From the NCBI GenBank assembly GCA_947625045.1, contig CANQMW010000018.1:1-60285 (forward strand): a stretch of 60,285 nucleotides of DNA. Reading direction: 5' to 3'. Of the stretch, positions 1-56,235 are shown in pieces. Position numbers and translations under genes: made by a program. How positions within the stretch are numbered: the first letter of the stretch is position 1; the number at the start of each line of letters is the position of its first letter. The notes under the pieces were generated by a model. The model worked only from the letters and a program-made list of their open reading frames with translations, did not search any database and was not told the origin of the DNA. The DNA comes from an uncultured Oscillospiraceae bacterium (GTDB lineage Bacteria; Bacillota; Clostridia; Oscillospirales; Oscillospiraceae).

Positions 1-3000
1 CCGTCAAAGGTCGCCTGGAACGTGAAGCCGGTGGTGTACTTTTTGAGCTGGGCGGCCATTGCGGCGTCTGCCACAGCGTCGGGGGTCTCTGCCCCCGCGG
101 GCGGCGTGATGCTGTCCGCCGTCGCGTCCGTCACCTTCACATCGGTCAGTGCCGGCCATTCGGGGTCGGCGATGACCAGCTTGTAGAAGATCGTCGCTTC
201 CTTGCGCTCGACCCTGATCATGACGGTCTTGCTCTCACCCGGGGTGAGCGTGAGCTCCTGGGGGAGATCTTCGCCCGCTCCGCTCCAGCTGTCGCCGTCG
301 CAGAATTTGATGGTATCACCCGCAGCGCCGGTCACCGTCAGCTGGGCGGCCTTGACGCTCTTCTTCAAGGTGATATCGACCGTCTGGGCGTCCTCATTCG
401 TATTGTACGCCGTGACGTTGAGACCTGCCGTGAACGTCTCCCCGCCCACCTGGACGTTCGTCAGGGGCGTAGGTCCGGCGGGGTTGGTGACGGACAGCTT
501 GTAGTAGGTGGGATCGGAGCCCAGGCCGTCATACACGCAGATGTATACATCCGTGGCCTCATCCTCATTGAGGAACGTTGTCTTGACGTCGATGGTGCTG
601 GCTGCGTCGGAGGTGAGCTCGGTGCCTGTCTCCTTCAAAGTTTCAACAGCCGATGCGTCCTTCGTGTATCTGGCATGCAGGCCGGCGAACGCCGCCTTGA
701 CGCTGAAGTTTGCGGCGTGTTTATCAAGCGTCGCGGTGTACTGGATGGGGTCGCCGCTGGTACCGGCGCCGGCGCCCTTATCAGCCGCCTTCGTCGGGTC
801 GGTGCCGCCCACGCCCACGTTCAGCGCCGTCAGCACGGGCTGCTTGCCGTTGGTCACGGTCAGCTTATAGAAGATGTCCGCCTTGTTGCGGGTGACTTTG
901 ATGACGATGGTCTGGGTCGGCTGGCCATTGAAGGACACCTTGGTGGCAGTTTCGTTATTAAAACTCTGCCAGTCGTAGCTGCCCCCGGTACTGTCATAGG
1001 CCCACTGCGCCGTGCTCGTATCGTCGCCGGACACTTCGCCCACTGCCGTGAACGCTGCCTTGAACCAGAACGCATCCACGTATTTCTCCAGCGTGGAAGT
1101 CGCCAAGCTGGCTGCCGTCTCAGACGCTCCGCCGGCGATACTACCGTCAGCAGCCGCATATTCGCTGTTCTTCGTATTCACTTCCAGCTTGGTCAGCTTC
1201 GGCGCGGCGGGGTCGGTGATGGTCACCTTGTAGAAGATATCCGCGCCGTTGCGGGTGACCTTGAGCCAGACAGTCTTCGTGGTCTTTCCGTCCGGGGTGA
1301 GCGTAAGCGTCACGCCGTCGCCGATAGCCGTACCCGGGTCTCTCCAGGTCTCGCCAACGTAATACTTGATGGTGGTTTCCGAATCATTGCCCGACGCCAC
1401 CGTCAGCTTGGCCGTCTCGACGCTCTTCGTCAGTTTGATATCGACCGTTTCGGGCGCTGTGCTTGAATTGTACTCTGTGACCGTCGGGGCTGTGAACGCC
1501 TCGTCGCCCACCTTGATGCTCGTCAGGGGCTTCGGCCCGGCGGGGTCCGTGACGGTCAGCTTGTAGTAGCTCTCGACGGAGCCTTCCTTGTCCACACGGA
1601 TGTATACCGGCACTTCCTCATCCGTGCCAGACATGTGGTCCGGGACCTCGATGTCTTCGCTGTCCGTTCCGGTGTTGAGCGCGGTCCCGCTTTCAGCGCT
1701 GCTCAGCTCGTCAAAGCCTGTCGTCGAATAATGGACCGTGACGTCGCTGAAAGTCGCCTGGAAGGTGAATTTATCGGCGTGTTTGCCAAGCGTTACGCTC
1801 AGCGGGACAGGCTTGTCGGTGCTCCCGCCGCCCTTTATTTCCCCGGCGACCGAGACGGTATCGTCGGGCACATTGCCATTTTTCACGGTCAGGCCCGTCA
1901 GCTTGAGGGGCGCGCCGTTGGTGACGGTCAGCTGGTAATAGACGGTGGCGCTGTTGCGGCTGACCTTGATGTAGATGGTCTTGCTCCCGGCCTTGGCATA
2001 CTCGTTGCCGGTATCGGCGTCGAACTGGACTTCTGCATTATCGCTGCTGGCTGCTATCGTCTTGTCCAGTGCACCTATGTCGTTGCCCCAGGACACCGTC
2101 GTCTCGCCGCTGTCTTCAAATGCCGCGGTGAACATGAACTTTTCGGCATACTTGCCGCTCAAATCGGCCGTGAGCTCCGTGGGAGAGTCATACGTGCCAC
2201 CTTCTATGGGACTGCCGGCGGCTTCCCCGCCGACCTTCTTTACAGCCGCATCGTTCACCGTGAGGCCGGTCAGCACCGGCCCGGCGGGGACCGTGACGGT
2301 CAGCTTGTAATAGCTGGGCTCGGAGCCGTCTTTATCCACGCGGATGTAGATCTCCACAGTATGCGGATCGCCGTCATCAGCGTCCGGGACCGGGATAGAC
2401 GTGGTCTCACCGAACGTCTTGACATTATGGGAGGTCCGCAAATCACTGAGCGCTTTCCCGCCCGTCGCATATTTGGCCGTGCCATCAATCACCGCGGTCA
2501 GCTTGATCTCTGCAGTATGCTTGGAAAGCGTCGTGCTCAGCTGGGGGTATTTATCCGTCGTGCCGCCGCCCGGGAGAGCTTCTGTGCTCCAGTTACCGGT
2601 GTCAGCCACCGCGTCGGTCACGCTCAGGCTCGTCAGCGCGGGGGGCGCGCCGTTGGTGACGGTCAGCTTGTAGTAGAGGTCGGCGCTGTGATTGGTGACT
2701 TTGATGTAGACGGTCTTCGTCCCCCCGTAGACCGGGGCCTCTCCTTTCTCATCGAAAGTGATCTCGGCCTTTCCTGCTCCGTCACCGCTCGCCAGCGCCT
2801 GGCCCTCGGTATCCAGCTTGTCGGGGTCCTCGGACCAGGTCGCTGAGCCTTCAAAGCTGGCAGTGAAATCAAAGCCGACGACATAGTCGTCCAGCGTGAT
2901 CTGCTTGCCCTCGGCCTCCGCCAGAGCTTCGACGCTCTCGACTCCGGCTTCACCGCTGAGACCCACCGGCGTCTCGTCGTTTATCGTGACCGAATTCAGC

Positions 3001-6000
3001 TTCGGCCCTTCGGCGTTGGTGACGGTCAGCTGGTAATAGACGGTGGCGCCGTTGCGGTTGACCTGGATGTAGATGGTCTTGGGCTTCGTCAGGTCGTCGA
3101 ACGTGACCGTTGTTTCCTCGCCGCTGGTCAGCGTGTTCTCCCACTTGGCAGGGCTGGCCTCAGTGGACCAGAACGCCGTGGTCTCCTCTCCCCCCTCAAA
3201 CGTGGCCTTGAACTGGAATGCCTTGACGTGCTTCTCCAGCGTGGACGTCAGCTTGGGGGCACTGTCGGCCGTATCGCTGCCTGCTATGGCATCGACGGTC
3301 TGCTCGCCCTGCTTCGCATCCTTGTCCTCCACCGTGAGGCCCGTCAGCGCCGGCCATGCGGGGTTGGTGACGTTCACCTTGTAAAAGACAGCCTTGTCAT
3401 TCCGCTCGACCTTGATATAGAGGGCCTGCTCCGTGCCATCCGGCTTGATATCATTCTCCGTAACGGAGACACTGATACTCTTGTTCACGCTGCTCGGATC
3501 AGTACCCCAAGTTACCGTGGTCTCGTCGTCGCCAACCTTTCCGGCCTCGATGGTGAAGTTCTTGTAGCTCTTGTCCAGTTTGACGTCATTTATCTCCGTG
3601 GCATCGTTTCCGTCCTTGGCATAGTCACTGCCGGTCAATGTGAGCTTCGACTGGTCAACGGTCGTTTCACCCAGCTTGAGCGACGTCAGCGCCACCGGCC
3701 CGGGTTTGACCGTGAACGTCAGCGGATTGGCGCTTTGTTCAAAGCCATCTTCCTTTTTGGTTACCGTCATCTCGCACGGCGTATCCGTTGTGATGGGACT
3801 GGTAAACTCCAGGGTGAGTGTATTGTTTTCATTAGCCGTAACTTCCACAGACCCGGGCGTCGTGGGGGTGAACGTGTAGTCGCTGGCTTTCGTAACATCG
3901 TTCAGCGTGACAATCGCCGTTTTGTTTTCATAATTGGCTGTGACGGGAGTCTGCGCCGTTATGTCCTTTGTCTTCACGGTATTGACCGTGACTGTGGCCT
4001 TGACGTTATCCGGGAAGGTGTTGCCGAAGTTATAAGTATCCTTCTCCTCAAACACATTTTTGTTCATCACCCAGATAATAACGTCGCCCTTTTTGATGTC
4101 CTCGCTCTTGAGGTTCAGCGTCACGCTGCCATCCTCGCGGTTGAACTCCATGGAGGATATCGTATTCAGGCCGGTGGTGTTACCAGCTACTACGCCGATA
4201 CCGGAGCTGCCACTGGAACTGAACGTAAGCGGCGTGTCGTAACCCTCCAGCTTGGCGGACAGTTTCACCTTCAGCGTTACTTCGCCCTCGGTCAGTGAGT
4301 CGGGGCTGGGCTCGGTGGACTCCACCGTGAGTACCGGCGTCACCTGGGTCATGCAGTTGAACTGGTAGTAGAGGTGCTCCTCGCCATTGGAGATAATGAC
4401 GTAGAGGTCCATATTGGGCTGGTTGATGGTTATGGGATCGCTCGCCTTACCGTCGTCTACTGACCTCCCGGGCTCATGAAAGCTCTCGGTGTCATACCTC
4501 AGTTCGCCCGTCACCCCGCTGGGCGTGATCGTGAACGAGCCCGTCTGGTCCACCTTGACGTTCTCCACTGTGACCCTGCTCGAGTCACCCATATTGCCGC
4601 CGGTGAGTTCGGCTTTCGTACCGCCGATCGTGAGGCCCCCCAGCTTCGGGTTTTCGGCAGACTTGATGGTGAAGGTCCCGGACACAAAACCGATAGATTC
4701 TTCCTCAAAGCTGAGTGTATACTCCTGTCCACCGTTGTTTTTGGCGTCGTAGTGGTTGGTATCGATTGTATAAAGATGACAGTCCTTCGCGGCGGTGGCC
4801 GTCACCGTGAACTCCTCGTCCTTGTAGACGTCGAACGTATCGCTACTGTTCGGGTCCCAGGTGACGCTCCCGGTGTACGGGGCCGTAAAGTTCACTGTTA
4901 GACTCTCGAAACGGCTCTTATCATCCAGCTTGAGCTTGTACTCGCTTTCCTCCTTGGACAGGGACAGGGTGCTGCTGTCATCATAGTCCGCGGTCGTCTT
5001 CACCGTGTAGCCGACATATCCGTCGGAGTCCACCGTCGTACCGCCCTCTACCTCGAACCCGCTGCTGTCTTCAAATTTATAGCCGCGCTTGACCAGTACG
5101 TCATCAAAAGTCAGATATGGCACTGGATAGAGATAACTCTCCGCGACTGAATCTGGCTTGAACGCGTCGCTGTTCTTGCTGACGGCGTCCAAAAGCGTGC
5201 GGGCGGTGGGCGTTGTAATCGTCAGCGTCTTATTGGCATACTGACTGAGATCAGAGATCTTATACTGGCAATATTTAAAGCCCCCGTAAGGTCCATCGAA
5301 TCCCAGCTCTATACTCTTTCCGTCACATGTCACCTCCAGCGTATAACCGTATTGGACGTAATAGACGAGGCTACTGCCCTCGCTGTTATCACCGGTGAAC
5401 CAGTATGTTCTGTCTTTGGTATCGGAGCCGACGCCATTCGTATAGAGTTTCGTGGCACCAGTTATATCAGGGGCGATCACGTCTGAGGCCTGCACCAGAT
5501 TGATGGTTAAGTCAGCAGTCAATTGAACGCCATTATACGTGCGTATTCTATCTGTCCCCGGATTATGAATGCTGGACGTCCCGTTTATTGAACTTCCGTT
5601 CGCAATGCCGCTGCTATTTTTGTCGATCTCATAGAACGCGGGGATGATGATGTCATACGTATTCGCCGCACCCGTGGACTTAACGGAGAACTTTGCATAC
5701 TCCGACTCATCATTGAGCGGGCAGAATTGTGCAATATCCGGGTCGGTCGTGAACGTGATCGTGTATGATGAGCCAGCATCCACTGTTACACGCTCCGCAG
5801 TGCCCGCCGCTGCAGGCGCGGGGACGTCCGCTGCCGTCACGGGCGCGGCTTCATCCGCCTCCGCCTCGGGCTCCTCAGCCTCCTCCGCCACGGGGGACTG
5901 GGGCTCCTCCGGCTCCACGGGCTCGGGCCCGGCAGGCTCCGCCGGGGCCTCGGGCTCCACAGGCGCGGCCTCTTCCGGCGCTTCCGGCGCCGCCTCTACC

Positions 6001-6104
6001 GCCTCATCCACGGGCATATCCAGCTCCTCCGCGGCGATCGCCGCGGGGAACAGGCTGAATATCATGACTGCCGCCATAATGAGGGACAATATACGCTTTC
6101 TCAT
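1..6104 (-). CDS. Giant secreted repeat protein with cadherin-like beta-sandwich repeats (3' end outside window)
   Basis: About 2,034 codons are visible and the frame is still open at base 1, so the C-terminus (and any sorting signal) lies outside. The ATG at 6104 has AGGAGG about 8 bases upstream. Residues 1-25 are a signal peptide (MRKR, then a hydrophobic core ending AIAA). A Glu/Pro/Ala-rich acidic stretch follows to about residue 95, then about 800 residues of Ser/Thr/Asp-rich beta-type sequence. From about base 3400 to the edge the protein is a tandem array of roughly 118-residue units, each ending in a motif like YYKLTVTNxxGPxLTxLTV. Ten such motifs are seen, near bases 3363, 3016, 2652, 2290, 1917, 1549, 1213, 846, 485 and 163. 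The units resemble the cadherin-like beta-sandwich family (PF12733) by pattern only. It is probably a cell-surface stalk or adhesin. A class B sortase lies just upstream on the same strand. Its promoter carries a G tract. Confidence 0.85.
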   Translation of the reverse strand, partial: MRKRILSLIMAAVMIFSLFPAAIAAEELDMPVDEAVEAAPEAPEEAAPVEPEAPAEPAGPEPVEPEEPQSPVAEEAEEPEAEADEAAPVTAADVPAPAAAGTAERVTVDAGSSYTITFTTDPDIAQFCPLNDESEYAKFSVKSTGAANTYDIIIPAFYEIDKNSSGIANGSSINGTSSIHNPGTDRIRTYNGVQLTADLTINLVQASDVIAPDITGATKLYTNGVGSDTKDRTYWFTGDNSEGSSLVYYVQYGYTLEVTCDGKSIELGFDGPYGGFKYCQYKISDLSQYANKTLTITTPTARTLLDAVSKNSDAFKPDSVAESYLYPVPYLTFDDVLVKRGYKFEDSSGFEVEGGTTVDSDGYVGYTVKTTADYDDSSTLSLSKEESEYKLKLDDKSRFESLTVNFTAPYTGSVTWDPNSSDTFDVYKDEEFTVTATAAKDCHLYTIDTNHYDAKNNGGQEYTLSFEEESIGFVSGTFTIKSAENPKLGGLTIGGTKAELTGGNMGDSSRVTVENVKVDQTGSFTITPSGVTGELRYDTESFHEPGRSVDDGKASDPITINQPNMDLYVIISNGEEHLYYQFNCMTQVTPVLTVESTEPSPDSLTEGEVTLKVKLSAKLEGYDTPLTFSSSGSSGIGVVAGNTTGLNTISSMEFNREDGSVTLNLKSEDIKKGDVIIWVMNKNVFEEKDTYNFGNTFPDNVKATVTVNTVKTKDITAQTPVTANYENKTAIVTLNDVTKASDYTFTPTTPGSVEVTANENNTLTLEFTSPITTDTPCEMTVTKKEDGFEQSANPLTFTVKPGPVALTSLKLGETTVDQSKLTLTGSDYAKDGNDATEINDVKLDKSYKNFTIEAGKVGDDETTVTWGTDPSSVNKSISVSVTENDIKPDGTEQALYIKVERNDKAVFYKVNVTNPAWPALTGLTVEDKDAKQGEQTVDAIAGSDTADSAPKLTSTLEKHVKAFQFKATFEGGEETTAFWSTEASPAKWENTLTSGEETTVTFDDLTKPKTIYIQVNRNGATVYYQLTVTNAEGPKLNSVTINDETPVGLSGEAGVESVEALAEAEGKQITLDDYVVGFDFTASFEGSATWSEDPDKLDTEGQALASGDGAGKAEITFDEKGEAPVYGGTKTVYIKVTNHSADLYYKLTVTNGAPPALTSLSVTDAVADTGNWSTEALPGGGTTDKYPQLSTTLSKHTAEIKLTAVIDGTAKYATGGKALSDLRTSHNVKTFGETTSIPVPDADDGDPHTVEIYIRVDKDGSEPSYYKLTVTVPAGPVLTGLTVNDAAVKKVGGEAAGSPIEGGTYDSPTELTADLSGKYAEKFMFTAAFEDSGETTVSWGNDIGALDKTIAASSDNAEVQFDADTGNEYAKAGSKTIYIKVSRNSATVYYQLTVTNGAPLKLTGLTVKNGNVPDDTVSVAGEIKGGGSTDKPVPLSVTLGKHADKFTFQATFSDVTVHYSTTGFDELSSAESGTALNTGTDSEDIEVPDHMSGTDEEVPVYIRVDKEGSVESYYKLTVTDPAGPKPLTSIKVGDEAFTAPTVTEYNSSTAPETVDIKLTKSVETAKLTVASGNDSETTIKYYVGETWRDPGTAIGDGVTLTLTPDGKTTKTVWLKVTRNGADIFYKVTITDPAAPKLTKLEVNTKNSEYAAADGSIAGGASETAASLATSTLEKYVDAFWFKAAFTAVGEVSGDDTSTAQWAYDSTGGSYDWQSFNNETATKVSFNGQPTQTIVIKVTRNKADIFYKLTVTNGKQPVLTALNVGVGGTDPTKAADKGAGAGTSGDPIQYTATLDKHAANFSVKAAFAGLHARYTKDASAVETLKETGTELTSDAASTIDVKTTFLNEDEATDVYICVYDGLGSDPTYYKLSVTNPAGPTPLTNVQVGGETFTAGLNVTAYNTNEDAQTVDITLKKSVKAAQLTVTGAAGDTIKFCDGDSWSGAGEDLPQELTLTPGESKTVMIRVERKEATIFYKLVIADPEWPALTDVKVTDATADSITPPAGAETPDAVADAAMAAQLKKYTTGFTFQATFD

Positions 6105-6178
6105 ATCTCAGGTCCTCCTTTTCGCCGCCCATAGGGGCGGTGCGCGCAAAAAACAAGGGTCCAACTTATAATAGTATC

Positions 6179-6208
6179 ATTTTAACCCCCCCCCCCGCGA
6201 TATTTCAA
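6179..6208 (-). promoter_or_regulatory. Promoter with 11-G homopolymer in the spacer, driving the giant surface protein
   Basis: Read on the minus strand, TTGAAA (6208-6203) is followed by an 18-base spacer (6202-6185) and TAAAAT (6184-6179). Eleven of the spacer bases are an unbroken G run (plus-strand C at 6186-6196). The predicted start near 6172 gives a leader of about 70 bases. The promoter of the other large surface gene (56165-56194) has the same -35, spacer length, G tract and flanking TCGC. A one-base slip would change the spacer to 17 or 19. Confidence 0.75.
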
Positions 6209-6226
6209 CAAAAAATGGCCGGGATA

Positions 6227-6261
6227 CCGAAATTGGTCGTTTTTATCCCGAAATTGGTCGT
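6227..6261. promoter_or_regulatory. Two perfect 14-bp direct repeats at 21-bp period, possible activator site
   Basis: The 14-mer ccgaaattggtcgt occurs at 6227-6240 and again at 6248-6261. The 21-bp period places both copies on one helix face, about 20-55 bp upstream of the -35 at 6208. On the transcribed strand each copy contains CCAATTTCG, which fits the CAnTTnnG half-site of LytTR-type regulators (AgrA/ComE class), whose half-sites also repeat every 21-22 bp. The regulator identity is inferred. Confidence 0.5.
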
Positions 6262-6273
6262 CGGCGGAAAGCA

Positions 6274-6299
6274 AAAGACCTGCCAGATGGCAGGTCTTT
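6274..6299 (-). terminator. Intrinsic terminator after the sortase gene
   Basis: A perfect 12-bp stem (AAAGACCTGCCA and its complement) with a 2-base loop lies just after the sortase stop codon. It ends in TTT followed by a loose T-rich tail in the minus direction. Confidence 0.75.
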
Positions 6300-6304
6300 C
6301 ATCT

Positions 6305-7567
6305 TTATTCCCCGCTCACCGGTATCATCAGCCCGTGGACCAAAAACCTCGGGTCGGCGTAGCCGCCGGAGTAGTCGCAGGTGGACAGGGTCATGAGCTG
6401 GTATTGGGTGCTCACGGCCGTATTCGTGGCGAAATAGGAGTGGCTGGTGATATCGTTCAGGTAATTCTGGAAGTCCCAGTCGCTCTCGAAATAATAGGGG
6501 TAGTTGGTCATCAGCGACTCGGTGATATGGGCCGCGATCAGCTCCACCCGGTAGTCCCCCTGGGGGGTGTAGAAGTAGATGGTGGGGTGCTGATAATAGT
6601 AGTTGGCGTCCACGTACTTCTCCAGGGAGGCGAACATGGACCCGTCCTTCATGTTGTGGCCGTAGATGATGTAGTTGTTGTACTGGGAGCCGATGTTGCA
6701 CACCGTGTCGGCAAACAGCGTGCCGGACACGTTCTCCTGTCTGTCCCAGAAGCTACGGTGCAGGTAGAAGTCGTTGTCCGTGGTCTGGACCACGGGGTAG
6801 TTGATCATGGTGTCCGGGCAGTAGAGCCAGCCCACCACGTCGGGGTTCACGCTGCGCAGATAATCCCAGTCCACCGAGGACGCGCTCTGGGTATTGCCGT
6901 CCCCTGAGCCCTGCTGGGCGTTGGGGTCCGGGGTGGCGTCCGGCTCCGTCATGCTCCCCAGGGCCTGCTCCGCCAGGTCGCTGTAGGCCGAGCGGTCCCG
7001 CCGGTAGTCCAGCATGATGTCCAGAAGCTTTCCCCCGGCGAACAGCACGCCGCACACCAGCACTACCACCAGGATGATGAGGGGGATGCTCTGCTTCCGG
7101 CTGCCGCCCCCGCCGCCCCGGCGGCGCCAGGGCTCCGGGTCATCGTACCGCCTGTCCCGGCGGTCGTCATAGGCCTCCCGGGCGGGACGGCGGCCGTACC
7201 CGTCGGGGTATACCTCCTGCCGGGGGGCGCGCTGACGGCGCGCGGGGCGCTCTTCCTCGTAATAATACTGCTCCTGCCGCTGCCGGGGCTGCTGCCGGCG
7301 GGCAGGGCGTTCCTCTTCGTAGTAATATTCCTCCTGCCGGGGCGCTCTCTGCCGCCGCACAGGCCGCTCTTCCTCGTAATATACCTCCTGCCGCTGCCGG
7401 GGCTGCTGCCGGCGGGCGGGGCATTCCTCCTCGTAGTATTCCTCCCGCCGGGGGGCACGCTGACGGCGGACAGGCTCTTCCTCCTGCCAGGCGTCGTCCC
7501 AGTCCATGTCCTGGCGCCGGGAACGGCCGGCGCCGTCCTGGTCCGGGTTCAGATGGCGTCCTGCCAT
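6305..7567 (-). CDS. srtB: Class B sortase with long repetitive cytoplasmic tail
   Basis: The protein has 420 residues. The ATG at 7567 has GGAGGAGCT just upstream and is preferred over an ATG 14 codons earlier. Sortase B-type transpeptidases cleave a sorting motif and attach the protein to peptidoglycan or pilins. A single membrane segment lies near residues 160-180 (SIPLIILVVVLVCGV), followed by an extracytoplasmic linker and the catalytic domain. The catalytic triad is visible: His about 304 (YGHN), Cys about 397 (TLSTC) and Arg about 407 (DPR). The unusual part is the N-terminal 150 or so residues, which should be cytoplasmic: five units of about 19 residues alternate between RRQRAPRQ and RRQQPRQRQ types, each closed by YYYEEE. 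Typical sortase B proteins are about 230-260 residues. The large surface gene downstream is a plausible substrate, but its C-terminus is not visible. Confidence 0.9.
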   Translation of the reverse strand: MAGRHLNPDQDGAGRSRRQDMDWDDAWQEEEPVRRQRAPRREEYYEEECPARRQQPRQRQEVYYEEERPVRRQRAPRQEEYYYEEERPARRQQPRQRQEQYYYEEERPARRQRAPRQEVYPDGYGRRPAREAYDDRRDRRYDDPEPWRRRGGGGGSRKQSIPLIILVVVLVCGVLFAGGKLLDIMLDYRRDRSAYSDLAEQALGSMTEPDATPDPNAQQGSGDGNTQSASSVDWDYLRSVNPDVVGWLYCPDTMINYPVVQTTDNDFYLHRSFWDRQENVSGTLFADTVCNIGSQYNNYIIYGHNMKDGSMFASLEKYVDANYYYQHPTIYFYTPQGDYRVELIAAHITESLMTNYPYYFESDWDFQNYLNDITSHSYFATNTAVSTQYQLMTLSTCDYSGGYADPRFLVHGLMIPVSGE

Positions 7568-7685
7568 AGCTCCTCCTTTTCCTCCCTGAGCCCACCGGCC
7601 CGGGGACATTCGCGGTTTTTGTCAGTATACCACGTTTGTAACCCTTTTGCAATCTCTTCGCCGGTCCATATTATGATATGAAAAG

Positions 7686-53043: not shown

Positions 53044-56000
53044 TCACTTCACCCAAATGCTGCCGTTCCAGTTGCCCAGCTTCTCAGACCAGGTGCACTT
53101 GCCGGAGGAGCCGGACTTCGTCTCGAACCAGCACTCGCCGTAGTCGCCGCCGACCCACTGCCAGCCGGTCAGCATCTTGCCGACCTCGCCGTGGTCATTG
53201 TTGGGCTGCAGGAAGTACCAGCCATAGCCGCCGTGCAGGTCGTCGATGTACTGCATGCCGGTCAGCATCTTGCCGTCGGGTCCCACATAGTACCAGTTCT
53301 TATCCCACTGGCTGGCCCCGTCGATCTTGCCCACCCAGTAGTTCGCGACCACCTCGCCCTTCTTGAAGAAGTACCACTCGCCGGTGTCGTAGTCATAGCT
53401 CCAGCCGGTGCCGCCGTTGGTCTTGGGCGGGTCCACGGGGACCGTGGGCTTATCGCCGCCGGTGCCCGGCGTGGGAGAGGGGCTGGGAGAGGGAGAGGGA
53501 GACGGAGACGGGCTGGGGCTGGGAGAGGGAGACGGGGACGGGCTGGGACTGGGCCTGCTCGTGCCGCCGCCGATGTCTACGCCGCCGGTGTACTTCTCCG
53601 TGACATTGAGCGTGATCACGTTCGCGCCGTCGTCCGGTGTGACATAATAGTAGTCAAAATACCCATTGCTCTCGACATATTCGCACCGGCCGTTGGTCAC
53701 GGAAAGCACTGCCTCCGTGGAAACATACACCCGCAGCGGGAAGTTCTCCCGGAATAAGAACGAGCCGCCTCCCCAGTCAACAATATAATTATCGTCGTTA
53801 TTGACCCTGATCTCAACGATGTCGGCCGCCGGGGCCTCCGTGTCCTTTTCAATGGTATACACCGCGCCATTGACGGCAGTCAATGTATAGTAGTGGTAAG
53901 GCTCCGGCTCCTCCGTATAATAGTCGACATCCTGGCCCTCAGCCGGGACCACTTTGCCTTCATACTTCAAAACATACTGCCATCTCAGATCAACGTACAT
54001 ACTGGCGCCGGCCGGGACCTTGTTTTCGCTGGGGATCAGATTGCCGGAGATGGCGTCCTGCCCGCTCACGTAGCGGTAGCTGCCTCCAAACCAGCCCTTG
54101 TCGTCGCCCTGGAACTTGACCGTGGCCTCATCAAGCTTCTTGGCCCTGACCGTGATCTCCTCCTTCTCGCCAGGCAGAGAAAGATAAAGACGTTTTGTCC
54201 CATCTTCATCCACCATGCAGTTGAAGACCCCGGCATTTCTATCAATAATGATATAATAGCCCGTGTCGAGCTCGCAGGTCAGCAGGCTTATTGTGCTCAG
54301 ACTGTCCTCGTCCCAGATCCACTCCAGATGATAATCACGCAGCTTATAGGTGCCAGCCGTTTCGGGCTCTATCTTGGTACCGTTCCATGCCAGCTCTGTG
54401 ATGGCGCCCGCCGGGTCCACATTCACCGTAATAGTAGGATTCTCCTCTACGGTGAGCGTCAGCACATACGTGTCGTCCTCGAGATACTCCTCCCATTTAT
54501 CCAGCTGGATCGTATAGATCCTCTTGACGTCCTTCGGATCCTCGACCTCATTGAAGTTATATCTCTTCCTGGAAATGACGCCATCCGGCATTTTCAGGAT
54601 ATAGTCCTTATCTACCACTACGGTGAGCCCATCCCCGGGGTAAGCGGAAAAGACGTCACCGCCCTTGACCGGCGAGCCGTAGAGGGTCATCTTTTGGACC
54701 TGCGCCGTGTAGTCGCCTTTGAGCACGACCTGGTACTGCACCTTCTCCTCGGCGGTGAGCGTGATGACCACGCCGTCGGCCTCGGCGGGATCGCCGTTGA
54801 ACACGTAAGCATAGCTGTCCAGCTCTGTCCTGTTCATGTACGCTCCCCAGACGCTGTACGTGAACTGGAGCCAGACGTCCTCAAAGGCCTTGCCGGACTG
54901 CAGCGTAAACGTTACGATCTGCCCCTCGGAAATGGACAGCGGCGTGTCCTTCGAGGGGTCCTCCAGCACGGTCACGCCGTCCAGGGCGACGCTCTTGATA
55001 AGCTCGCTGCCCTCGCCGAACTGCAGCGTGGCCCGCAGGGGCAGATCCGCCTGGATGTCCACGGCAATATTCTCGGTCCCCTCACCCACATAGCTTACGA
55101 GGTACTCATTGGGAGTCCCGGTGGGGTCGACATAATAGTTGTCGCTGCTGCGGAGTGTATAGCCGTTGTATACTGTCACGTAGAAGGGAGTGTACAGATC
55201 GGGCGCGTACAGGGCCGCGCCATAGGTATACTCGAACCTTTGCCGGTCGCCGTATTCCTTTTCGACCTTTTCGACGCCGCCGCCCCAGGTCAGGGTGCCT
55301 ATCTTCGGGACGCCTTCCACAGCGGTGACCGTTACCGATGTCGCGCCTTTATCGGGTATGATGCGCCAGCAGACGCAGCGATTGTTTCCATCGACACCAT
55401 TGTAAACAGCTATGTCCCTGCCGTATATATCTTTTGAGAGCGTGGCGTTCTCAAGCTTCAGGCTATATCCTTCCCGAACATAGATGTCCACGGGCTGGTC
55501 CGGCAAAAACGCCTCGTTTGTGTTAATGAAATACTCCGGATTGGTGTATTTGACCTTTACGGGCTGGATCTCTGTTGCGCTCTTTACGTAGACGGTGACC
55601 ACCGTCGCGCCGGACTCAGGTGCAAACACATAGCCGCGGAAGACTTTGTCGCCGTTAGTTCCCATATGCCGGTAATTCTCTATTTCCTCTGCGCCCTCCA
55701 CGTGGTCGAGCGCATACCCGGAGTAGAGCCTGATCGGGAACGTGAACTTTCCGTCTGAATCCTCAGAACCATTCCATATATTACCCACTAGGACCTCAGT
55801 ATCGGGGTCTATCTTATATATGGCTTTCTCGGCGGGGAGCAGCTTGAACTTGACGGTGGTGCCCACTACCGTTTTCTCTGTTCCCCAGTTCTCATTTTTG
55901 CCGCTGTCGCCGCCCTCTTCGCCGCTCGAGATCGGCACAGGCACCTCCGCCGCCGCGGGCGCGGGTTCCTCGGCCACGGCCTCCACGGGCGCTTCCGGCT

Positions 56001-56103
56001 CTTCCAGGCCCGCCGGGGCGTCAGGCGCCGCCGCAAACGCGGGGATCGCCAGACCCAGCGTCATCACGAACGCCAGGAACAGGCTCAACGCACGCTTTTT
56101 CAT
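53044..56103 (-). CDS. Large secreted surface protein with Ser-Pro spacer and C-terminal wall-binding-like repeats
   Basis: The protein has 1,019 residues. The ATG at 56103 follows GGGAGGAAAGC. The signal peptide is MKKRALSLFLAFVMTLGLAIPAFA. An Ala/Glu/Pro linker (about 25-60) precedes about 780 residues of beta-rich sequence that I cannot assign, with recurring VTVTA/ITLTAEEK-type strands. Next comes a run of about 17 Ser-Pro pairs (near 860-895). The last 115 residues are aromatic Trp/Tyr/Gly repeats (NWYYVGPDGKMLTGMQYID, GYGWYFLQ, GKMLTGWQWVGGDYGECWFE) resembling choline/glucan-type cell-wall-binding repeats. There is no LPxTG motif. Its promoter has the same G-tract design as the gene at 6104. 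Confidence 0.88.
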   Translation of the reverse strand: MKKRALSLFLAFVMTLGLAIPAFAAAPDAPAGLEEPEAPVEAVAEEPAPAAAEVPVPISSGEEGGDSGKNENWGTEKTVVGTTVKFKLLPAEKAIYKIDPDTEVLVGNIWNGSEDSDGKFTFPIRLYSGYALDHVEGAEEIENYRHMGTNGDKVFRGYVFAPESGATVVTVYVKSATEIQPVKVKYTNPEYFINTNEAFLPDQPVDIYVREGYSLKLENATLSKDIYGRDIAVYNGVDGNNRCVCWRIIPDKGATSVTVTAVEGVPKIGTLTWGGGVEKVEKEYGDRQRFEYTYGAALYAPDLYTPFYVTVYNGYTLRSSDNYYVDPTGTPNEYLVSYVGEGTENIAVDIQADLPLRATLQFGEGSELIKSVALDGVTVLEDPSKDTPLSISEGQIVTFTLQSGKAFEDVWLQFTYSVWGAYMNRTELDSYAYVFNGDPAEADGVVITLTAEEKVQYQVVLKGDYTAQVQKMTLYGSPVKGGDVFSAYPGDGLTVVVDKDYILKMPDGVISRKRYNFNEVEDPKDVKRIYTIQLDKWEEYLEDDTYVLTLTVEENPTITVNVDPAGAITELAWNGTKIEPETAGTYKLRDYHLEWIWDEDSLSTISLLTCELDTGYYIIIDRNAGVFNCMVDEDGTKRLYLSLPGEKEEITVRAKKLDEATVKFQGDDKGWFGGSYRYVSGQDAISGNLIPSENKVPAGASMYVDLRWQYVLKYEGKVVPAEGQDVDYYTEEPEPYHYYTLTAVNGAVYTIEKDTEAPAADIVEIRVNNDDNYIVDWGGGSFLFRENFPLRVYVSTEAVLSVTNGRCEYVESNGYFDYYYVTPDDGANVITLNVTEKYTGGVDIGGGTSRPSPSPSPSPSPSPSPSPSPSPSPSPSPTPGTGGDKPTVPVDPPKTNGGTGWSYDYDTGEWYFFKKGEVVANYWVGKIDGASQWDKNWYYVGPDGKMLTGMQYIDDLHGGYGWYFLQPNNDHGEVGKMLTGWQWVGGDYGECWFETKSGSSGKCTWSEKLGNWNGSIWVK
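53466..53568 (-). repeat. Hexanucleotide-type repeats encoding the Ser-Pro spacer
   Basis: Imperfect 6-base units (CCCAGC, CCGTCT, CCCTCT and similar) encode about 17 Ser-Pro pairs between the beta-rich body and the wall-binding repeats. Being in-frame, changes in copy number would change stalk length only. Confidence 0.8.
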
Positions 56104-56164
56104 ATGCTTTCCTCCCGTTGTTCAAAAAATAATTGGATGCAAAATACCAGAATATAGCATCATC

Positions 56165-56194
56165 ATTGTAACACCCCCCCCCCAGCGATTTCAA
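56165..56194 (-). promoter_or_regulatory. Promoter with 10-G homopolymer in the spacer, driving the second surface protein
   Basis: On the minus strand, TTGAAA (56194-56189), an 18-base spacer (56188-56171) with ten consecutive G, then TACAAT (56170-56165). The leader is about 55 bases. The -35, the TCGC after it, the G tract and the AATGAT after the -10 are shared with the promoter at 6179-6208. Confidence 0.75.
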
Positions 56195-56211: not shown

Positions 56212-56235
56212 GGGATATTTTTTGAAAACGGACAT

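Follow-up and report, generated by a model that had tools for sequence, protein, structure and literature searches.

Why should the putative promoter of a giant surface-protein gene carry an unbroken run of guanines between its two hexamers, and could this run act as a switch? The question arises in a contig of 60,285 nucleotides (62% G+C), hereafter the window, from an uncultured Oscillospiraceae bacterium, presumably one that lives in the gut. In Neisseria, homopolymers between the -35 and -10 elements are the basis of switching in porA, with opc as the other example. An earlier note had proposed a phase-variable promoter of this kind here, with TTGAAA and TAAAAT 18 bp apart and 11 of those bases in one G run, an anatomy that the sequence bears out. 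The minus strand reads TTGAAA-TATCGC-G11-T-TAAAAT from 6208 to 6179, with the -35 hexamer at 6203-6208, the G11 tract at 6186-6196 (11 of the 18 spacer bases) and the -10 hexamer at 6179-6184. The distance from the -10 hexamer to the ATG at 6104 is 74 nt, and the ATG is preceded by AAGGAGGACC. A consensus scan of 6050-6400 finds a single promoter-like site, the one at this cassette; shuffles of the same stretch average 0.5 sites, so that the hexamers alone are weak evidence. The homopolymer lies between the -35 and -10 elements of a promoter that is predicted from this consensus match.

The gene behind the cassette (3-6104, minus strand) encodes a predicted signal-peptide surface protein of at least 2034 residues, a minimum length because the frame is open to the contig end. 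Its N-terminus, MRKRILSLIMAAVMIFSLFPAAIAAEE, was judged by eye to be a signal peptide, and a YKLTVTN-like motif recurs eight times in the protein at a spacing of 111-124 residues; no Pfam family matches at 1e-3. The giant genes of the window (at 1-3) and of contig C49 (L045:8103) both leave their contigs at the same repeat, where the assembly breaks. The co-oriented upstream neighbour (6305-7609, minus strand) encodes a class B sortase (PF04203; TIGR03064 with 182.2 bits against a cut-off of 153.75). Between the sortase gene and the promoter, a repeat scan located a perfect 12-nt hairpin (6274-6299), which scored as terminator-like on the plus strand. Random surface switching in gut bacteria has mostly been studied as promoter inversion; an inverton was rejected here, as no inverted repeats of 10 nt or longer flank the first promoter within 5950-6450, where only the one-sided hairpin at 6274-6299 is found.

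The same cassette had been noted before a second gene some 50 kb away, and it is real. At 56194-56165, again on the minus strand, the sequence reads TTGAAA-TCGCT-G10-TGT-TACAAT with a spacer of 18 (-35 at 56189-56194, G10 tract at 56174-56183, -10 at 56165-56170), and it precedes the gene of a signal-peptide surface protein of 1019 residues (53044-56103, minus strand, ATG at 56103). The C-terminal module of this protein weakly resembles choline-binding repeats, below the Pfam cut-offs. A perfect 11-nt A-rich inverted pair (56121-56131 and 56216-56226, 84 nt apart) brackets the second cassette. Short palindromes, AACGC-A6-GCGTT and AACAC-A6-GTGTT, stand directly before the -35 at C4:11968 (L043) and C18:56165, and the changes between them match in both arms.

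A census of G/C runs over the 60-kb window revealed none longer than 6 except one of 10 and one of 11, and both of these are promoter spacers of signal-peptide genes. Long runs as such are not rare under the simpler null models: a dinucleotide shuffle of the window gives a mean of 15.3 G8 windows compared to 7 observed, and order-1 Markov copies average 0.9 runs of at least 10. What carries weight is therefore where the runs lie and not that they exist. Simulation of the window with Markov models, 60 copies of order 1 and 60 of order 5, yielded no cassette.

That the cassette is a recurring design, as the earlier note held from two copies, turned out to be an understatement. The window's own genome (G000; 2.93 Mb in 73 contigs, 95% complete) contains 28 distinct tracts of at least nine G, counted from 49 overlapping matches, and seven of these sit between TTGNNA and TANAAT with spacers of 17 or 18. 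They lie at C18:6179, C18:56165, C3:11563, C3:25081, C4:11968, C24:8336 and C49:3992, matching the pattern TTGNNA-N-G(10-11)-N-TANAAT; the reversed pattern, used as the control, gives 0 in this genome. All seven tracts are pure G10 or G11 (G11 and G10 in the window), compared to a length of about 8 or more for a switch of this kind, and they look uniform in this one assembly. Downstream of each cassette, at 57-77 nt, come a motif resembling a ribosome site and a start judged by eye to open a signal peptide, either MKKRALSLFLAFVMTLGLAAPAFAA or MRKRILSLIMAAVMIFSLFPAAIAA in type (7/7); surface or surface-modifying genes are the usual, if not strictly defining, targets of such switching. The seven genes are related, so the cassette copies are not independent. 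The C-terminal module of the 1019-residue protein has 31 matches in the genome, 24 of which cover at least 110 of its 115 residues, and it is carried by five of the seven cassette genes, the other two leaving their contigs. In the gene on C24 the module is located behind a frameshift. This gene (C24:7763-8272, L044), which follows a pure G10 cassette, is frameshifted about 150 residues in, with the rest open in another frame, and no homopolymer was seen by eye at the frameshift site. The distance from tract to -10 differs between the promoter groups of the genome (0, 1 or 3 nt), and their flanks differ too.

Related promoters were then compared for the purity of the tract. For a signal-peptide query, the upstream 160 nt were read at the best 30 of 65 matches, with starts set by script, a few of which may be off. 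Five of these 30 family starts have a pure G10, two have interrupted G-rich spacers and 23 have no G run longer than 5; the window gene at 6104 and the C49 gene ranked lower in this search and fall outside the best 30. The two interrupted spacers occupy the same place as the pure tracts, one at C3:17975 (GGGAGGGG, spacer 16) and the other at C26:30043 (GGGGGATAGGG, spacer 17). A tract-blind search by the element just upstream of the -35 found seven promoters in 2 of 35 genus genomes, namely the window's own and that of a sister species (G023), and none with the control. The own genome contributes three G10 tracts and one interrupted spacer, the sister a G9, a G10 and one interrupted spacer, so that five of the seven are pure (G9-G10) and two interrupted, with spacers of 16-18. 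Pure tracts thus prevail in the promoter group that shares this upstream element, and "locked" versions exist. In total, three related promoters retain a spacer that is rich in G but interrupted, which indicates that the gene can persist without a pure run. At G023:C16:31935-31963 (L072), a G10 cassette is followed by no signal-peptide start and resembles a promoter fused to the remnant of a gene.

Length differences between otherwise matching sites were found within the genus and beyond it. At the site that is homologous to the first promoter of the window, the sister genome has TTGACA-N7-G7-TATAAT with a spacer of 14, compared to TTGAAA-N7-G11-TATAAT with a spacer of 18 on C49 of the own genome; the flank is of equal length, and the tract is shorter by four in the sister. 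Nine cassettes of an unrelated, uncultured member of the Bacilli (G427) share TTGAAATTTTGAT-Gn-TATAAT, with n = 11, 11, 11, 12, 12, 13, 13, 14 and 14. In five of them the 52 flanking nt are identical, with n = 11, 12, 12, 13 and 13; thus 8 of 10 flank-identical pairs differ, and only in the tract. Elsewhere, the single such pair of G428 differs (12 vs 11), that of G426 does not (0/1), and G432 has no such pair. The lengths in G427, G428 and G426 come from metagenome assemblies in which several copies lie close to the end of a contig, and sequencing is poor at long G runs, so that a one-base error is possible in single cases. Taken together, the G7/G11 difference at the homologous site and the differences between flank-identical copies in G427 show that tracts of such build change length. 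The strongest data on length change come from lineages other than that of the window.

Among genomes, sets of cassettes are rare and patchy. The earlier note had suggested a search of related genomes for the pattern with TTGAAA as its first box; in this form, five cassettes are present in the own genome and none in the 34 other genus genomes. With TTGNNA, 400 family genomes yielded 14 cassettes in six genomes (seven in the own genome, three in the sister and one in each of four others) compared to 1 with the reversed control, and 299 phylum genomes yielded 12 in six, of which the own genome again has seven, compared to 2 with the control. The single matches outside the own and sister genomes are near chance, with counts close to the control: 4 vs 1 in the family sample and 5 vs 2 in the phylum sample. 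In a scan of named genomes, which may leave out the window's own species, at least 117 stretches exist, of which 80 loci, with 81 cassettes, were examined. Eighteen genomes picked for having a match gave 60 matches (one place counted twice) and none with the control, led by G426 (12), G427 (11), G432 (6), Faecalibacterium prausnitzii CNCM I 4541 (G434; 6) and G436 (5); in these other Firmicutes, up to 12 cassettes occur in one genome of 1.3 Mb. Among the 81 listed cassettes, those with a spacer of 15-21 stand ahead of a start of the exported or membrane type in 36 of the 55 cases that could be read (10 of 65 were too short), compared to 2 of 15 for spacers of 10-14 (1 of 16 too short) and 78 of 1600 at random points. 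The Fisher value of 0.0004 is optimistic, because several rows share a genome. A phage-borne cassette was considered and rejected: across an entire collection of viral contigs, the G9 pattern matches five stretches, two of them with identical letters in the match, and the cassette is therefore not a common phage feature. Strain variants of the cassette did not emerge from the same collection either: the 28-nt downstream flank has no match there, and the upstream-element pattern has five stretches, none with a G run longer than 2 in the match.

The first cassette is most probably a phase-variable promoter of the sigma-70 type, built like that of porA, acting by slipped-strand mispairing and belonging to a set of such promoters on surface-protein genes. 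This is also what the earlier note had read into the locus, and the reading is supported by the anatomy at 6179-6208, by the recurrence in seven copies with surface-protein targets, and by changes of length at homologous or flank-identical sites elsewhere. We infer that slippage is the cause of these changes. The G11 tract would be the elastic part of the spacer: mispairing at replication would add or remove G residues and move the distance between -35 and -10 away from or onto the optimum of 17-18 bp, and the gene of the giant surface protein would be transcribed more or less strongly in a heritable and reversible manner, also in the window's own species. The states of the seven genes would combine into many surface profiles, and the benefit might be escape from phage, antibody or competitors, or altered adhesion. 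ON/OFF and graded switching had both been envisaged; by analogy with porA, graded switching appears more likely and a strict ON/OFF switch less so. The spacers of 17-18 in the seven own cassettes suggest a productive state in the assembled population, and the sister copy with a spacer of 14 would be off. Full-length MutS is present in the genome; loss of mismatch repair was thus rejected as a driver, and the slip rate need not be high.

Among the other explanations, the one that survives best, although we consider it unlikely, takes the G tract as the fixed G-rich spacer of a weak, activator-dependent promoter, with direct repeats upstream as the activator site and slipping as an unused by-product. 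Interrupted G-rich spacers do persist in three relatives, all seven own tracts are 10-11 long, and a conserved direct-repeat pair, ACGACCAATTTCGG (6224-6261, minus strand; 17 nt each, 94% alike, 21 bp apart), ends 15 nt before the -35 hexamer in the first cassette. The pair is a candidate regulator site, perhaps an operator shared in the genus; its layout resembles that of LytTR-type regulator sites, and a LytTR regulator is perhaps what acts there. Ten further loci of the genus were examined, and nine of these, one of them in the own genome, have the pair, with an imperfect second copy at L330. Signal-peptide-like starts were seen by eye after the pair at four loci (L323, L330, L325 and L327) and not at the remaining five. 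Against a fixed spacer, none of these nine other loci has a G run longer than 5 within the next 200 nt, so the repeat-pair site does not need a G spacer, and the tract differs by four at the homologous site. If the pair is an activator site, a slip of the tract would also shift its distance to the -10.

Less probable still is that the cassettes are copies of one ancestral promoter, spread by gene duplication with a functionless tract. The seven genes are indeed related and promoter groups share upstream sequence; however, groups with different flanks and different tract/-10 distances (0, 1 and 3 nt) all keep a pure G10-11, where functionless pure tracts would be expected to decay, and unrelated lineages show the same design before exported-type proteins. 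Chance or an assembly artefact, for which the error-prone lengths of homopolymers and the ease with which a dinucleotide shuffle yields G8 windows might speak, is hardly credible given the window census, the absence of cassettes from all 120 simulated windows, the seven cassettes of the own genome against none for its reversed-pattern control, and the same anatomy in a sister species and in a strain genome of Faecalibacterium prausnitzii.

The proposed phase-variable promoters may be accompanied by a second kind of G-tract switch. Eight of the 28 tracts in the own genome, all G9-10, lie near the start of small genes resembling those of Nif11-like or double-glycine leader peptides (three at C13:47.9-48.4 kb and one each at C9:3148, C27:11969, C2:88834, C45:6210 and C46:5992; loci L048, L049, L052, L055, L056 and L057). 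In these genes the tract would code for glycines, and a slip would take the remainder out of frame. As assembled, the tract is in frame in five of these genes and out of frame in three; translational switching by G tracts would leave such a mixture of frames among like genes. One of four tested leader products passes the Pfam Nif11 cut-off and scores 31.9 bits against the NCBIfam Nif11-leader model, which needs 32.3; two gave no convincing family in Pfam or NCBIfam, and the fourth no family in Pfam, the only collection used for it. Six long ORFs, from four loci that lie close to six of the eight leader tracts, gave no match to a peptide-modifying family, and some of the scanned ORFs may be antisense; the likeness to RiPP systems therefore stays a resemblance. 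Five further G9-10 tracts lie at C1:125150, C1:132769, C5:72210, C13:34636 and C3:83731. One of them falls where a gene for a dicarboxylate symporter (PF00375) begins; of the other four, placed by eye, one is in a permease-like gene, one in an AraC-like ORF, one towards the end of a long ORF and one immediately ahead of a LytTR-like response regulator. We give even chances to a wider proposal, in which two kinds of G-tract switch, one in promoter spacers of large surface proteins (at least seven) and the other in frame in Nif11-like or double-glycine leader genes, shuffle surface profile and peptide output together in single cells, similar promoter sets having arisen separately in other Firmicutes.

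The principle itself is already known, from porA of Neisseria and from G tracts of Bifidobacterium; what is notable here is the presence of seven such promoters in one genome, together with the tracts in leader genes. In Neisseria meningitidis, the promoter of porA, a gene for a major surface protein, likewise has a pure G tract (9-11) in its spacer, and the poly-G length between -10 and -35 sets expression: relative to 11G, the surface protein is reported to be reduced about 2-fold in the 10G variant and 13-fold in the 9G variant, and total protein 1.2-fold and 3-fold, respectively (PMC3639595). The present case differs in that bacterium and protein are unrelated to those of porA, that seven related surface-protein genes in one genome are concerned, and that it is known from sequence alone. 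Slipping G tracts also control a surface structure, a sortase-dependent pilus, in the gut commensal Bifidobacterium breve; the tracts studied in that report lie in the reading frame and not, as here, in a promoter, although a side remark of the authors places other G tracts of this strain within promoter spacers (PMC9187656). Invertons of gut bacteria likewise give heritable random switching of surface genes, and a median of 3 per genome, a low number, is reported for the Clostridia-like Firmicutes_A (PMC11892184); unlike the first cassette, they use site-specific inversion with inverted repeats. Hypermutable homopolymers have been described as a general mechanism in prokaryotes, the same principle as here, in a survey that deals with tracts within coding genes, mainly poly-A and poly-T (Orsi 2010, PMC2831843). 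Among the literature matches listed, a scope that leaves out preprints and most subscription papers, none describes promoter spacers with poly-G in gut Firmicutes, and the view that the design had not been described in this bacterial group is not contradicted by them.

Averaged assemblies would hide the state of genes behind G-tract cassettes. If the reading is true of commensal Firmicutes, slipping G tracts would provide a little-noticed layer of cell-to-cell variation in these bacteria; tract lengths could then be counted in existing reads, per gene and per host, and would report selection by phages, antibodies and diet.
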